The position numbers and the translations under genes were made by a program. From Membranipora membranacea (taxonomy: Eukaryota; Bryozoa; Gymnolaemata; Cheilostomatida; Membraniporidae): 64,000 nucleotides of DNA. The stretch covers positions 20,694,062 to 20,758,061 of the forward strand of contig OU612074.1 of the NCBI GenBank assembly GCA_914767715.1, written 5' to 3'. Shown piece by piece: positions 44,617 through 64,000 of the stretch (positions are counted from its first letter, which is position 1; every line of letters begins with the position of its first letter). Below the pieces are notes generated by a model, which saw only the letters and a program-made list of their open reading frames with translations, had not been told where the DNA came from and did not search any database.

Positions 44617-46421
44617 ATGGCACACATCACTAAAGCATCACTTTTTTTGACAATCATCTGTATGTCGAGTTACACATCAGTGCAAGGGTAAGTTTGTTTA
44701 CTTTGCTGTTATATGGTATTGCAGCCAGCTGCTATAGTCCTATGGAAAATTAAAAAAAGAAATCTTGGTCCATAGTCTAACATAGTTTGAACCCACCATT
44801 GCGATTTAATATTGTTTGACTAAATCTAAATCAAAATGATATATTAATTATTAGAGAGGAGATAGTAAGGCTTTGCCAACACAAAACAGTATTCAGTAAA
44901 GAAGTTACTTCGATGTACTGAGATCGAAAAATCCACTCAAATGAATCCAAATCAAGTTTCAATTCAAAGTATGTATGTATTAATACCAAAATATAAAATG
45001 TGCCTCAAAGAAAAGAAGACCATCGGCTTGGTCATTTGCCTCATAATATAAAGGCATCAAAGCATTGGCGTCATACACCAATACACTATAGATACATAAG
45101 TTACCCGTACAAGAGTGCCACAGTACCATATGCACACTTTTTAGGATTATAATACCGATACACTAAGATATTTCATCTTTTCTGTTTGTAGCCAGCAGTT
45201 GACAGACACTATCTTGGACCCAATCCTTGTTCGACTACAGTCACTCCCTAAGGAACAGCAGCTAGCATTCAACCAAGGTTTAATCACTATGATAAGGGCA
45301 AGCTTGGGGCTGATCCCATCGATGGCAGCTCAGCCTGACCCACTACCTCAACAGCCTCTGCCTACCATTCAATCTGAAGTAATCCCTGCAAAACCAGATC
45401 TCCCAGCAGGAAAAGTGAACCCTGTCATTCCAGTGGATCAAGCTGCACCTGTCGACCCTGTCACTCCAGTTGATCCAGTTGCACCTGCACCAGTTGCTGT
45501 TGTTGATCCAGCTGCAAAAGTAGACCCAGTTGAACCTGTAGCATTTCTCAATCTAGTTGCACCAGCAGGGCCAGCTGACTCTGTTGCTCCAGTTGCTGCT
45601 GTAGATCCTGCTGCTCCCGTTGATCCACTTGCACCAGTAGAGCCAGTTGCACCAGCTGTTCCCTTTGTCTATGTGCCACCAGTCGTACCAGTGCCTGCTG
45701 GATCTGGACAGACAGCCAAGACAATCGGACTGGGCTCAGCTACAGCCGCAGTTCTCTCACAGCTCACATCAGGAGGAGGAGCACCAGTAGGGAGCTCTCA
45801 GCCTCAGGAGATAATAACGACAGCGGCACCAGCAGTCACCTTACCTCATGTGTTTGTGAAACAAACCAGATGTCAGGGAATAAGAAGTGAGTAGTATATA
45901 AATTACGAAATTTAGTTTTTATATGGAAATGTGCATGCTAAAATTTTTGAAACCTGCGATGAGTTTATTTAACGCGAATGCAAAGAATATACAACTTGCC
46001 ACCACACTCATTCATATTTTTACATTCTTCAATGCGCTTTACTACATCCCTAATATTATTGCTACTCGCTCCAGAGAAATTGCATTAATTTCATTCTGAG
46101 TTCCTTAGACTCTTGACCCCCCCCCCCTGTCGACGACCCCCTGGCCCCTGGAACATTTAGGTGCTCCTACAAAACATTGATCAATAATCCATCTCTCTCT
46201 TTACAGTAATTGAAGGAACTGACTGTATGGTCTTTGGCAGACAATCTTGTGGAGAAGGAACTCGATTCGATACTTTCTACTGCGTGTGTAACTTTATGTC
46301 AAGAGTCGACCCAATCAGATGTTCCTCTGCGCCAGCACATCTTGACATCGCACCACAACCCTCATACGCTGTGGCACTATCTGAATTACCTACTGGAGCC
46401 TCAACTGTTACCTTGGCATAA
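44617..46421 (+). CDS. Acidic Pro/Val/Ala-rich secreted protein, gene 1 (C-terminal FGRQ/CVCN domain)
   Basis: Exons 44617-44687, 45192-45886 and 46207-46421 (phases 2 and 1) total 981 nt, or 326 residues. Exon 1 is a signal peptide starting [14 protein letters not shown]. Exon 2 opens with a Leu/Gln-rich, probably helical segment ([20 protein letters not shown]). It continues as low-complexity PVDPV/APVD triplets (about residues 95-180), then a Gly/Ser/Thr linker ending TTAAP before KQTRC. The last exon holds five more cysteines: TDC, FGRQSC, YCVCN (two) and, after VDP, C. This domain aligns without gaps to gene 2. Its Pro/Ala-rich C-terminus differs from gene 2. It lacks the N-terminal cysteine pair of genes 2 and 3. 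I know no named family; secretion is well supported, function is not. Confidence 0.85.
46117..46160 (-). other. C-rich tract in intron 2 of acidic gene 1
   Basis: A run of about twelve C, then further C runs (CCCCC, CCCC), potentially quadruplex-forming on the minus strand. Confidence 0.5.
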
Positions 46422-46692
46422 GCAATCCATACTGAAATAGTTTAATTAATCACAATTTTAATTTAGTTACATTCAATTTGATTGCACTATTAATGACTGT
46501 TTTTGCTGTTTTTTTTTTGTTTTAGGACAATTCCATATTTATTGACATTTTTCTTTTTTTATAAATCCAACAAAACTTGGCCGACATTTTTTGGACTGTT
46601 TATGTACGCTGATCCTGGTTGCATAATGCAATGAGAGGTGATATGACATGTACTGTAATTTTTCATAACTGCTCAGCTCAACAACCTTTATT

Positions 46693-60821: not shown

Positions 60822-63800
60822 ATGGGGACACTATGTTATATATTTACCTTACTGCTGACAGCCTATACTCTACAGACCTCACTTGGACATGTCATCAGAC
60901 AGTCGGATGTACAAAATGCTCACAACACGTAAGTAACAACTTATTGTTTAGTTCAGCTTTAAACTACGGATCTGGTGCACCAAATATATCACATTACACC
61001 ATCTATAATTGTAGATGAGTGATTTGCAGGGCTTCTTGGTGGAAGTTTGAACTATGTTGAATACTTTAATATGCAATTTAGATTTTCCATCAGCTCACTC
61101 TAATGATTAAATTCTTAATGATAATCTGTAGCATGTAATAGGGAGAGCAGACATGTGCTGTGGAAAGAAAAAATTGATTATTATTAATCAATGTAAAATC
61201 CCATACTATCCCAGCTGTGAATTTACGTTGATTATTAATGATCAATTTTGTTTCCGTGGAACAAGTCAAATTAACCTAATTAATTAAATTGAATGATCAA
61301 ATAATGTAGTGGAGTTCATAAATACATTTGGAAAACACCTACTTTCTCTAACAATCATTAACAAAAACAATTCACCTCTTTGCCTTTAATTAATTCTGTC
61401 ATTAATTGTTATGAATTTAATCAGATCTCAATTTTTTTACTCGATACAATTTTTTGCTCAGATGGTGTATGATTGATGAAAACTTGCGTTCATTAAGATT
61501 TATAACGCGTCATGAATGCAATATACTCTTTTATTCAGGCTTGGACCAACACAGATAGATGCTATTGGTACAGTTGACTGCGTAGGATTCCTTGGAGAGC
61601 TTTTCCGAGCTGTCGGACTTGATTACATGTGTAAGCAGACACCATTAGCGGATCAGCACATCCCTCATACTCATACCAATCCAGTCGCTCCAGTAGCACC
61701 ATTAGATACAGCCGCTCCACTAGATCCAGTTAATGCAGTAGATCCAGTGTCACCAGTAGATCCAGTGTCACCAGTAGATCCAGCTGCACCAGATGCACCA
61801 GTTGAACCAGTCGCACCTGTTGATCCAGTTGCTTCAGTCGATCCAGTTGCACCCGTTGATCCAGTTGAACCAGTTGCTCCAGTTGCACCAGTTGATTCAG
61901 TTGCCCCAGTTGACGCAGTTGCACCAGTTGAACCAGTCACACCAGTCGCACCAGTTGATCAAGCTGCCCCAGTTGATTCAGTTGCCCCAGTTGACGCAGT
62001 TGCACCAGTAGATCCAGCTGCACCAGATGCACCAGTTGAACCAGTCACACCAGTCGCACCAGTTGATCAAGCTGCCCCAGTTGATTCAGTTGCCCCAGTT
62101 GACGCAATTGCACCAGTAGATCCAGCTGCACCAGATGCACCAGTTGAACCAGTCGCACCTGTTGATCCAGTTGCTTCAGTCGATCCAGTTGCACCAGTTG
62201 ATCCAGTTGAACCAGTTGAACCAGTCACACCAGTCGCACCAGTTGATCAAGCTGCCCCAGTTGATTCAGTTGCCCCAGTTGACGCAGTTGCACCAGTAGA
62301 TCCAGCTGCACCAGATGCACCAGTTGAACCAGTCGCACCAGTTGATCCAGCTGCCCCAGTTGATTCAGTTGCCCCAGTTGACGCAGTTGCACCAGTTGAA
62401 CCAGTCGATACTGTTGCACCAGTTGAACCAGTCACACCAGTCGCACCAGTTGATCAAGCTGCCCCAGTTGATTCAGTTGCCCCAGTCGATGCAGTTGCAC
62501 CAGTTGATTCAGCTGCCCCAGTTGATCCAGTTGCACCAGTCGATCCCGTTACACCAGTTGATTCAGCTGCCCCGGTTGAACCAGTTGCTTCAGTCGATCC
62601 AGTTGAGACAGTTGCACCAGTTGAGACAGTTGCACCAGTTGATCCAGTTGCACCAGCCGATGCCGTTGCACCGGTTGATCCTGTTGCACCAGTTGATACA
62701 GCAGCTCCAGTTGATCAAGTAGCTACAGTTGATCCCGTTGCATCAGTAGATCCTGTTGCATCAGCTGATCCAACAACACCAGTTGATCTTGTTGCACCAG
62801 GTGATTCAGCTGCCCCAGTTGACTCAGTCGTCCCTGTAGATCCAGTTGCTCAAGTTGAACCAGTGGATCAACCTGCACCAGGTGACTTGATCACTGTTGT
62901 TGATCCAGTTGCTCCAGTCGATCCAGTTGCACCAGTCGATTCTGTTGCACCAGTTGATCCTGTTGCCCCAGTTGAACCACTTGAACCAGTTGAACCAGTT
63001 GAACCAGTGGAACCAGTTGATACAACTGCTCCGGGTGAGTTGATCACTGTTGTTGATCCAGTTGTAGCAATAGATCCAATTGCACCAGTTGACCCAGTTA
63101 CACCAGTCGATTCTGTTGCACAAGTTGATCCAGTTACCCCGGTTGATCCAGTTGAAACAGTTGAGACAGTTGCTCCAGTCGATCCAGTTGCGTCAGTAGA
63201 TCCTGTTGCATCAGCTGATCCAACTACACCAGTTGATCTTGTTGCACCAGGTGATGCAGCTGCCCCAGTTGACTCAGTTGTCCCTGTAGATCCAGTTGCA
63301 CCAGTCGATCCCATTGCACCAGTTGATTCAGCTGCCCCGGTTGAACCAGTTACTTCAGTCGATCCAGTTGAGACAGTTGCACCAGTTGAGATAGTTGCAC
63401 CAATTGATCCAGTTGCACCAGTTGAACCAGTCGATACTGTTACACCAGTTGCACCAGTCACACCAACTGATCCAGTTGCCCCAGTCGATGCAGTTGCACC
63501 AGTTGATTCAGCTGCCCCAGTTGAACCAGTTGCTTCAGTTGATCCAGTTGCACCAGCTGATGCCGTTGCACCGGTTGATCCTGTTGCACCAGTTGATACA
63601 GCAGCTCCAGTTGATCAAGTAGCTACAGTTGATCCCGTTGCACCAGTAGATCCTGTTGCATCAGCTGATCCAACTACACCAGTTGATCTAGTTGCACCAG
63701 GTGATTCAGCTGCCCCAGTTGACTCAGTCGTCCCTGTAGATCCAGTTGCTCCAGTCGATCCAGTTGCACCAGTCGATCCTGTTGCACCGGTTGAACCACT

Positions 63801-64000
63801 TGAACCACTTGAACCAGTTGAACCAGTTGAACCAGTGGAACCAGTTGATACAACTGCTCCGGGTGAGTTGATCACTGTTGTTGATCCAGTTGTAGCAATA
63901 GATCCAATTGCACCAGTTGACCCAGTTACACCGGTCGATTCTGTTGCACAAGTTGATCCAGTTACCCCGGTTGATCCAGTTGATCCAGTTGAAACAGTTG
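60822..64000 (+). CDS. Giant acidic PVD/PVA-repeat secreted protein, gene 3 (partial, runs off the window)
   Basis: Exon 1 (60822-60928, phase 2) encodes a signal peptide starting [17 protein letters not shown]. Exon 2 begins at 61539 after TATTCAG and stays open to base 64000, giving 856 visible codons. Cys50 and Cys67 frame [12 protein letters not shown], which aligns gaplessly with gene 2. After a short HIPHTHTN stretch, codons from 61681 on are almost wholly PV(D/E), (P/S/A)V(A/T) triplets. By direct reading they contain no Lys, Arg, His, Cys, Met, Trp, Tyr or Phe; roughly one residue in five or six is Asp or Glu. The protein would be an extended polyanion, plausibly cation-binding. By analogy with genes 1 and 2 a phase-1 intron and a CVCN-type last exon should follow beyond the window. 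The plus strand is coding because signal peptide, splice phase and cysteine motif all agree. Confidence 0.85.
61681..64000 (+). repeat. 9/18-bp coding satellite with 450/900-bp higher-order repeats
   Basis: The base unit is CCAGTTGAT or CCAGTTGCA (9 bp), usually paired to 18 bp. TCAGCTGATCCAAC recurs at 62761, 63211 and 63661, exactly 450 bp apart. The 210 bp from 62641 match those from 63541 with four differences (offset 900). The block from about 63001 matches that from 63829 (offset 828) with one substitution and one 9-bp unit added. Confidence 0.93.
61951..62520 (+). repeat. Sub-repeat blocks within gene 3
   Basis: CCAGTTGATCAAGCTGCCCC starts at 61951, 62059, 62239 and 62446, spaced 108, 180 and 207 bp (all multiples of 9). 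A long shared context follows each copy. Confidence 0.9.

Follow-up and report, generated by a model that had tools for sequence, protein, structure and literature searches.

What kind of protein is encoded by a cluster of three repeat-rich genes on chromosome 10 of the bryozoan Membranipora membranacea, and from which parts was it assembled? The genes, here called g1, g2 and g3, all lie on the plus strand of a 64,000-nucleotide stretch (OU612074.1, bases 20,694,062-20,758,061; the window). A preliminary description of this stretch had noticed secreted, acidic, proline-rich products with a common exon plan and recognised no described family. Judged from its sequence, the short cysteine module at their C-terminal end (C-module) is a shortened derivative of an exon of the chitin-binding family CBM_14, from which the stretch around the third cysteine was lost. 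Together with a fourth, dispersed gene (g4), g1-g3 probably constitute, at roughly 60%, a small bryozoan family of secreted cuticle or skeletal-matrix proteins, in which a chitin-type anchor would hold an extended acidic or glycosylated core.

The C-module is common to the three clustered genes. Its pairwise BLOSUM scores were 116, 95 and 153, and for no pair did any of 20,000 shuffles with fixed cysteines score as well. The cysteines are spaced as C-x10-C-x7-C-x10-C-x1-C-x10-C in g1 and g2 and likewise in g3, with x9 as the first interval; g4 has five cysteines. The genome (339,339,785 bases in 18 contigs, ~35 kb of small pieces fewer than the published tzMemMemb1.1 assembly, which is given as 339,374,674 bp in 21 scaffolds, PMC10290214) was searched with exon 3 of g2, which returned 24 places, namely g1-g3 and 21 whose individual matches are weak (E 0.001 to 1.4). 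By eye, 19 of these 21, g4 among them, belong to one domain type with a motif of about C-P-x-G-T-x-F-D-x3-C-x-C-N-H. Ten of the weak places were scanned by Pfam; eight matched CBM_14 (PF01607; E 1.7e-4 to 0.13), five of them at E <0.001, and the best match lay exactly at the gathering cut-off of 22.1 bits.

Since the places found with g2 had been picked by likeness to it, an independent set was built from the 14 CBM_14 domains that Pfam itself detects in the assembly (E no higher than 0.001, each above the cut-off; 127 candidates scored). Two were dropped for stop codons, and the remaining 12 domains were compared with a profile of the C-modules of g1-g4. The comparison gave a probability of 83.8% and a score of 28.0, a value reached in none of 200 column shuffles with fixed cysteines (best 19.0). 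The eight domains without the CVC pattern scored 21.0 with the same profile, again above all 200 shuffles (best 19.4), and with a three-module version of the profile none of 150 shuffles was as good for either domain set. An earlier profile comparison (98.6%) was set aside as partly circular, its domains having been chosen by likeness to g2.

Three further lines of evidence were obtained. Intermediate forms exist in the genome, as 4 of the 14 Pfam-found domains carry the CVC pattern; they form a cluster on chromosome 7 (20477639-20509195; L046, L049, L051, L052) and stand between the canonical and the CVCNH forms. In the protein database, the family profile (A5) gave two matches among 47 candidates, the end of g1 itself (P0001) and P0002, a protein of 114 residues whose source, 'merc', we take to be a marine eukaryote catalogue. 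P0002 matches the family profile at E 2.8e-3 and CBM_14 at E 6.3e-12, and has VCNHKYLV in common with g2; single-sequence searches of the protein database with the C-termini of g1 and g2 gave no matches. In addition, all 20 exons inspected (g1-g4, 12 derived and four Pfam-found domains) have a candidate phase-1 acceptor no more than 29 bases ahead of the domain. This check is supportive and not proof, since AG also occurs in other phases in 13 of these exons and the count comes without a chance rate. Because of the profile test against fixed-cysteine shuffles, the intermediates, the outside protein and the candidate acceptors, descent of the C-module from CBM_14 is favoured. The family was thus not entirely new: the preliminary description had held that terminal modules matching a known family would speak against it, and profile methods find such a relative for the C-terminal one.

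Several results weigh against this descent or limit how far it can be taken. When the C-modules of g1-g3 were scanned, only that of g3 matched CBM_14 (E 0.068, 13.8 bits, under the cut-off), and those of g1 and g2 had no Pfam match. The six-cysteine spacing described for the family, CX13-18CX5CX9-11CX10-13CX7-8C (PMC7663561), is not followed in g1-g4, where agreement is confined to the x10 span of the CP..D...C part. The third canonical cysteine and the stretch surrounding it are absent, so that the ability to bind chitin may have gone. With the canonical, non-CVC set the absolute probability is low (37.5%), and the profile alignments span 19-23 columns only, which correspond to the C-terminal half of the domain. 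Solved structures (PDB) searched by sequence gave a best E of 1.5, unrelated, and a 55-residue structure model (predicted local distance difference test, pLDDT, 77.8) matched none of 20 aligned chains; a model of locus L024 alone (pLDDT 52.6) was not used. The g3 module also matched plant Ec metallothionein (E 4e-4, under that family's cut-off). A metallothionein identity was rejected, as this was a single sub-threshold match in g3 alone, and the match was taken as cysteine composition. An exact 10-residue peptide of the family was not found in the literature.

The module would then share descent with CBM_14 without being a member of it by Pfam cut-off or cysteine spacing. Compared with CBM_14/peritrophin-A (ChtBD2), it is alike in the C-P-x-G-T-x-F/Y-D-x(3-4)-C core followed by V-C, in the candidate phase-1 acceptor before the domain and in being a secreted cysteine module, whereas it is shortened between the second and fourth canonical cysteines, the third being gone, and has CxC (CxY in g4) where CBM_14 has a single C.

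The module stands at the end of a fixed gene plan. Exon boundaries of g1-g3 were taken from the sequence and spliced by script, and signal peptides were called by eye, giving predicted gene models with products of 326, 842 and 1,915 residues, respectively. All introns are GT-AG, and each gene is composed of a signal-peptide exon ending in phase 2, a low-complexity exon ending in phase 1 and a short cysteine exon (Table 1). The three genes were found where the preliminary description had placed them, and the third gene, cut by the end of the window, completes the same plan in 40 kb of downstream sequence, where exon 2 runs on to extended coordinate 67048 and is followed by the phase-1 intron and the cysteine exon. 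Exon 2 of g1 is bounded by the acceptor TTTGTAG and the phase-1 donor GTGAGTAG. TATA-like boxes (TTATAT, TATAAA and TATTTAA in g1, g2 and g3) lie 64-79 bp before the ATG, and AATAAA/ATTAAA motifs lie less than 700 bases after each gene. A possible intron in the 3' untranslated region was seen by eye in g2 and g3, both with the donor GTGAGT soon after the stop; in g3, the AATAAA/ATTAAA motifs would fall within this candidate intron. The products are acidic, as had been proposed, with isoelectric points (pI) of 4.67 (g1), 4.05 (g2) and 4.05 (g3) and acidic versus basic residue counts of 24 vs 15 in g1, 296 vs 15 in g3 and 27 vs 11 in g4.

Table 1. Predicted exons, cysteine modules and repeats of g1-g4. 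Positions are those of the window unless a chromosome or an extended coordinate is named.
Feature	Position	Strand	Remarks
g1 exon 1	44617..44687	+	Signal peptide by eye; ends in phase 2; GT donor GTAAGTTT
g1 exon 2	45192..45886	+	Pro/Val/Ala-rich core; first Cys of C-module near end (KQTRCQGIR)
g1 exon 3	46207..46421	+	Putatively CBM_14-derived Cys module, stop; AATAAA at 46693
g2 exon 1	51732..51784	+	Signal peptide by eye (MRVLILLTTLLSASSAQ); phase 2; TATAAA ~64 bp 5' of ATG
g2 exon 2	52064..54372	+	Two-Cys N-module, sequon-rich 122-aa repeat, PVPAVD array, first Cys of C-module (DRKCPWAR)
g2 N-module	52137..52190	+	Cys43 to Cys60 (CNAYITALFTELDLLYMC)
g2 tandem repeat	52437..53348	+	366 bp, 2.5 copies, 95% matches, N-x-S/T-rich
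g2 hexapeptide array	53651..54050	+	PVPAVD type, 18-bp period
g2 exon 3	54620..54786	+	Putatively CBM_14-derived Cys module (SGCRFFGRQTCPPNTVYDFTFCVCNHKYLVDPVTC), stop; AATAAA at 55075
g3 exon 1	60822..60928	+	Signal peptide by eye; phase 2; TATTTAA ~69 bp 5' of ATG
g3 exon 2	61539..64000, on to extended 67048	+	Two-Cys N-module, PVDPVA triplet array, LNST-rich part
g3 N-module	61579..61632	+	Cys50 to Cys67
g3 Pro-Val-X triplet array	61678..64000, continuing outside window	+	Residues ~83-1032 of 1,915
g3 exon 3	extended 67320-67450 (chromosome 10 20761381-20761511), outside window	+	Cys module
g4 exons	chromosome 2 39448327-39448475, 39449048-39449592, 39451029-39451183		Predicted, 282 residues

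The plan extends beyond the cluster. On chromosome 2, a TPTATAAD-repeat exon was found 1.4 kb upstream of a weak C-module match (L016), and the resulting gene, g4, has a signal-like N-terminus and introns in phase 2 and then phase 1, as in g1-g3. Its C-module scores 80-105 against those of g1-g3, with none of 5,000 fixed-cysteine shuffles as good in each case. The Ser/Thr-rich TPTATAAD core is unrelated to PVD, and therefore the plan is fixed, the core is interchangeable and the family reaches beyond the array of three. The proposal of a secreted family with a fixed exon plan and a variable core is strengthened by this dispersed member. The end of intron 2 of g4 is filled up to the presumed acceptor by a minisatellite (TTACACGCTATGCTGTTTCTATGGTCGTAGTG type), whose units hold possible TAG acceptors (L016 ~1200-1499, L067 6580-7000).

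Further members were sought in several ways. A fifth gene of the plan was not seen in genome searches with the g4 N-terminal two-cysteine stretch (self only), g1 exon 3 (8 places) and g4 exon 3 (7 places), with flanks of ~1.5 kb and part of the weak matches checked upstream, and no further gene of the plan was found within 104 kb around g1-g3. The search for PVD-like places gave 137 matches, with 150 of 1,675 candidates scored, and two places outside g1-g3 were opened. Both were rejected as family members, one being a microsatellite of 9-bp period (L061) and the other lying antisense to a collagen-like GXY frame (L066).

Conservation at the opposite end of the proteins is partial. Two cysteines spaced 17 apart are found after the signal peptide in both g2 (43/60) and g3 (50/67), and only 30 of 20,000 fixed-cysteine shuffles aligned equally well. 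The g1 N-terminus has no such cysteine pair, and its alignment to this N-module was no better than shuffles (20,000). The N-terminal two-cysteine stretch of g4 was likewise no better than shuffles against g2 and g3 (1,059 and 629 of 5,000 as good), so its homology to theirs is not claimed. The statement that the end motifs are kept is therefore right for the C-module of all three clustered genes, and for the N-terminal motif it is restricted to g2 and g3.

The cores of g1-g3, ahead of the C-module, are low-complexity and free of cysteine. They had been described as giant exons of PVD/PVA triplets. Such triplets dominate in g3 only, as a Pro-Val-X (PVX) array; in g2 they occupy ~138 residues, and in g1, with an exon 2 of just 695 bp, they are weak. 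The 349 prolines of g3 are overwhelmingly spaced by multiples of three, with 184, 213, 192 and 191 pairs at lags 3, 6, 9 and 12 and just 4-14 at each remaining lag between 1 and 11. Pairs of acidic residues are commoner six positions apart (172) than at lags 3 (41), 5 (11) or 7 (20), and the PV-x triplets include PVD (97), PVA (49) and PVE (34). Chance is rejected as the explanation of this periodicity, as it is for the likeness of the C-modules. In addition, g3 has 23 sequons, all except one in its later LNST-rich part (shuffle mean 4.7). The largest block of g2 is a 122-residue repeat covering ~304 residues, which holds 13 of the 16 sequons of the protein (whole-protein shuffle mean 5.5).

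When codons of the g3 core are compared at a distance of 18 bp, the mismatch is 0.238, 0.231 and 0.382 for positions 1, 2 and 3 (944 codon pairs), and therefore its protein pattern looks constrained. The short g2 PVD array has no such third-position excess (0.182, 0.356 and 0.303; 132 pairs), which speaks against the point. Against the reading as acidic matrix proteins, g4 and parts of g2 are closer to mucin than to acidic PVD. Expansion by repeat slippage, as suggested in the preliminary description, is seen in the recent 366-bp tandem duplication of g2. Since the cores of g1-g4 differ in sequence, lengthening alone does not explain them: they were exchanged, or have diverged so far that no likeness remains.

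With these elements, a working model of the proteins can be proposed. A pre-protein with a signal peptide would be secreted, and its long cysteine-free, proline-spaced core, mostly acidic in g1-g3 or Ser/Thr-rich in g4, would be held at the C-terminal end by a compact cysteine module, probably closed by disulfides. The g3 core is a polymer of P-V-X triplets in which Asp/Glu favour every second triplet. If it adopts an extended left-handed polyproline II (PPII) conformation with three residues per turn, acidic side chains would therefore lie on one face every ~six residues. Within the zooid wall (cuticle/ectocyst), which is chitinous and calcified, the C-module may tether the chain to chitin or to further proteins of the matrix, and the charged core, presumably N-glycosylated on its sequon-rich parts, may hydrate the layer, bind calcium or keep the wall flexible. 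A matrix role, formerly suggested by composition alone, is now suggested by a chitin-domain relative plus composition. The setting is suitable as far as it is described: bryozoan cuticle is reported from histology to consist mainly of mucopolysaccharides, proteins and chitin, and the intra-mineral organic matter of three Antarctic bryozoans is cited as similar to it in bulk composition (PMC11358562). The cystid wall is described as a cuticular, often calcified ectocyst, and the cyphonautes larvae of membraniporine cheilostomes as shelled (PMC7317743).

As far as the searches show, three things are new, namely a module of this shortened kind, a core of PVX triplets and their occurrence in a bryozoan, while the ingredients, chitin-binding proteins, repetitive low-complexity cores and acidic proteins, are described as recurrent in marine skeletons (PMC7272335). 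The bryozoan skeleton is thought to be of separate origin from mollusc and brachiopod shells. No bryozoan skeletal proteome was among the matches listed in the literature search (titles and abstract starts), and bryozoan matrix proteins may be new. Little is known of the proteins in bryozoan body walls and skeletons, for which the four genes are named candidates, and the family is a case of a standard chitin-binding exon apparently shortened and combined with unrelated repeat cores. Tentatively, g1-g4 might even count among the earliest matrix proteins to be identified from the bryozoan skeleton. A CBM_14 exon would have been reduced to a cysteine anchor and attached to exchangeable cores, of which one would be a new PVX polymer with a regularly spaced acidic face if it is PPII.

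Among known systems, silk fibroins and spidroins are alike in that constant terminal modules enclose a long repetitive core, which changes length by repeat expansion, whereas their ends and repeats are unrelated to the acidic PVX repeat and putatively CBM_14-derived end found here. Introns of vertebrate SCPP genes are phase-0 throughout; an identity with this family was rejected, the phases here being 2 and 1 and the organism a bryozoan. The mollusc shell matrix proteins Pif/BMSP, likened by description, are likewise secreted as matrix precursors that unite a chitin-binding domain and a part interacting with mineral (PMC11291548). Pif97 has a VWA domain, and none was noticed in g1-g4, whose whole proteins were not scanned by Pfam.

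Another possible explanation is given a minor share of probability: the proteins could be mineral-directing acidic skeletal proteins, whose Asp/Glu-bearing PVX core acts mainly on calcium carbonate, the C-module being a mere disulfide cap or protein contact. The pI of 4.05 of g2 and g3, the large acidic excess of g3 and the six-residue recurrence of its acids would suit such a role, and both acidic and repetitive low-complexity proteins are described as recurring in marine skeletons (PMC7272335). Neither g1 nor g4 as a whole carries much net charge, however, and the sequon-rich stretches of g2 and g3 suggest glycoproteins.

A location in the digestive tract instead of the body wall is somewhat unlikely, yet a real rival, because CBM_14 adjoins mucin repeats in insects (PMC2515642) and at two other places in this genome. 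The proteins would then line the gut or be secreted in mucus, as bryozoan equivalents of the peritrophic mucins of insects. One of the two places (L072, chromosome 5, near 24152702, minus strand) has three CBM_14-like domains of the same type between long TTTTP repeats and looks like a peritrophic-mucin-like bryozoan gene; it resembles g1-g4 in joining this domain type to low-complexity repeats, and differs in its several domains, Thr-Pro cores and exon plan. At the other (L022, chromosome 9), a same-type domain is followed by a T/P-rich reading frame 1,234 residues long. Insect PerA mucins and peritrophins (Drosophila Muc/Mur, the T. ni invertebrate intestinal mucin) are described as secreted proteins with a CBM_14-type module and a long proline-containing repeat that varies among paralogues (PMC2515642), as here. 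Of their features, signal-like N-termini and a derived CBM_14 module are present in our family, while Ser/Thr-rich sequence is limited to the core of g4 and to parts of those of g2 and g3. The insect cores are Ser/Thr-rich and those of g1-g3 Pro/Val/Ala-rich and acidic (PVX mainly in g3), g2 and g3 add a two-cysteine N-terminal motif, and the module is single and terminal, compared with 1 to 16 in silkworm peritrophins (PMC7663561).

It is improbable that the C-module is an independent cysteine-rich module converged on the CP.GT.FD...C pattern and that the family is a true orphan. The missing Pfam matches of g1 and g2, the deviating six-cysteine spacing, the lack of a structural match and the short alignment would agree with convergence, whereas the genomic intermediates, the fixed-cysteine shuffle controls, the shared candidate phase-1 acceptor and the occurrence of VCNHKYLV in the CBM_14 protein P0002 argue for descent. 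Finally, spurious genes over minisatellites with no stable product can hardly be entertained, even though the antisense strand also has long open reading frames, the two other PV-like places opened were a microsatellite and an antisense frame, and the g2 PVD array has no third-position excess, since signal-like N-termini, splice sites, phases and a conserved cysteine module recur in four genes and g3 does show that excess.

Other features were observed around the family of putative cuticle and matrix proteins. The flank downstream of g3 encodes a neurotransmitter-gated ion-channel ligand-binding domain (L010 14-457, E 5.1e-19). Within the window, positions 1113-5476 form an imperfect palindrome of ~4.4 kb, with seven of eight arm pairs 95-97% complementary, one 85% and 736 nt between the innermost arms; its reading frames are mirrored, and it looks like an inverted duplication or a mobile element. 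A Ly6/uPAR-like cysteine pattern over two exons was seen by eye at 8224-8920, with no Pfam match at E 0.01. Two C-type-lectin-like gene pieces lie at 12173-13252 and 15328-16101; the first matches Lectin_C (E 1.5e-6 for 12950-13249), and the second is similar by eye, with no Pfam match. Elsewhere in the assembly, a contig of 14,741 bp (C18; L038, L039) is mitochondrial; its size and gene order disagree with the published table for Dentaliida (PMC9859601), and a scaphopod source was rejected. It has genes named by eye (COX1 by Pfam) on both strands: cob, cox2, nad3, nad5, cox1, nad2, nad4L and nad4 on one, and nad6, cox3, nad1 and atp6 on the other.

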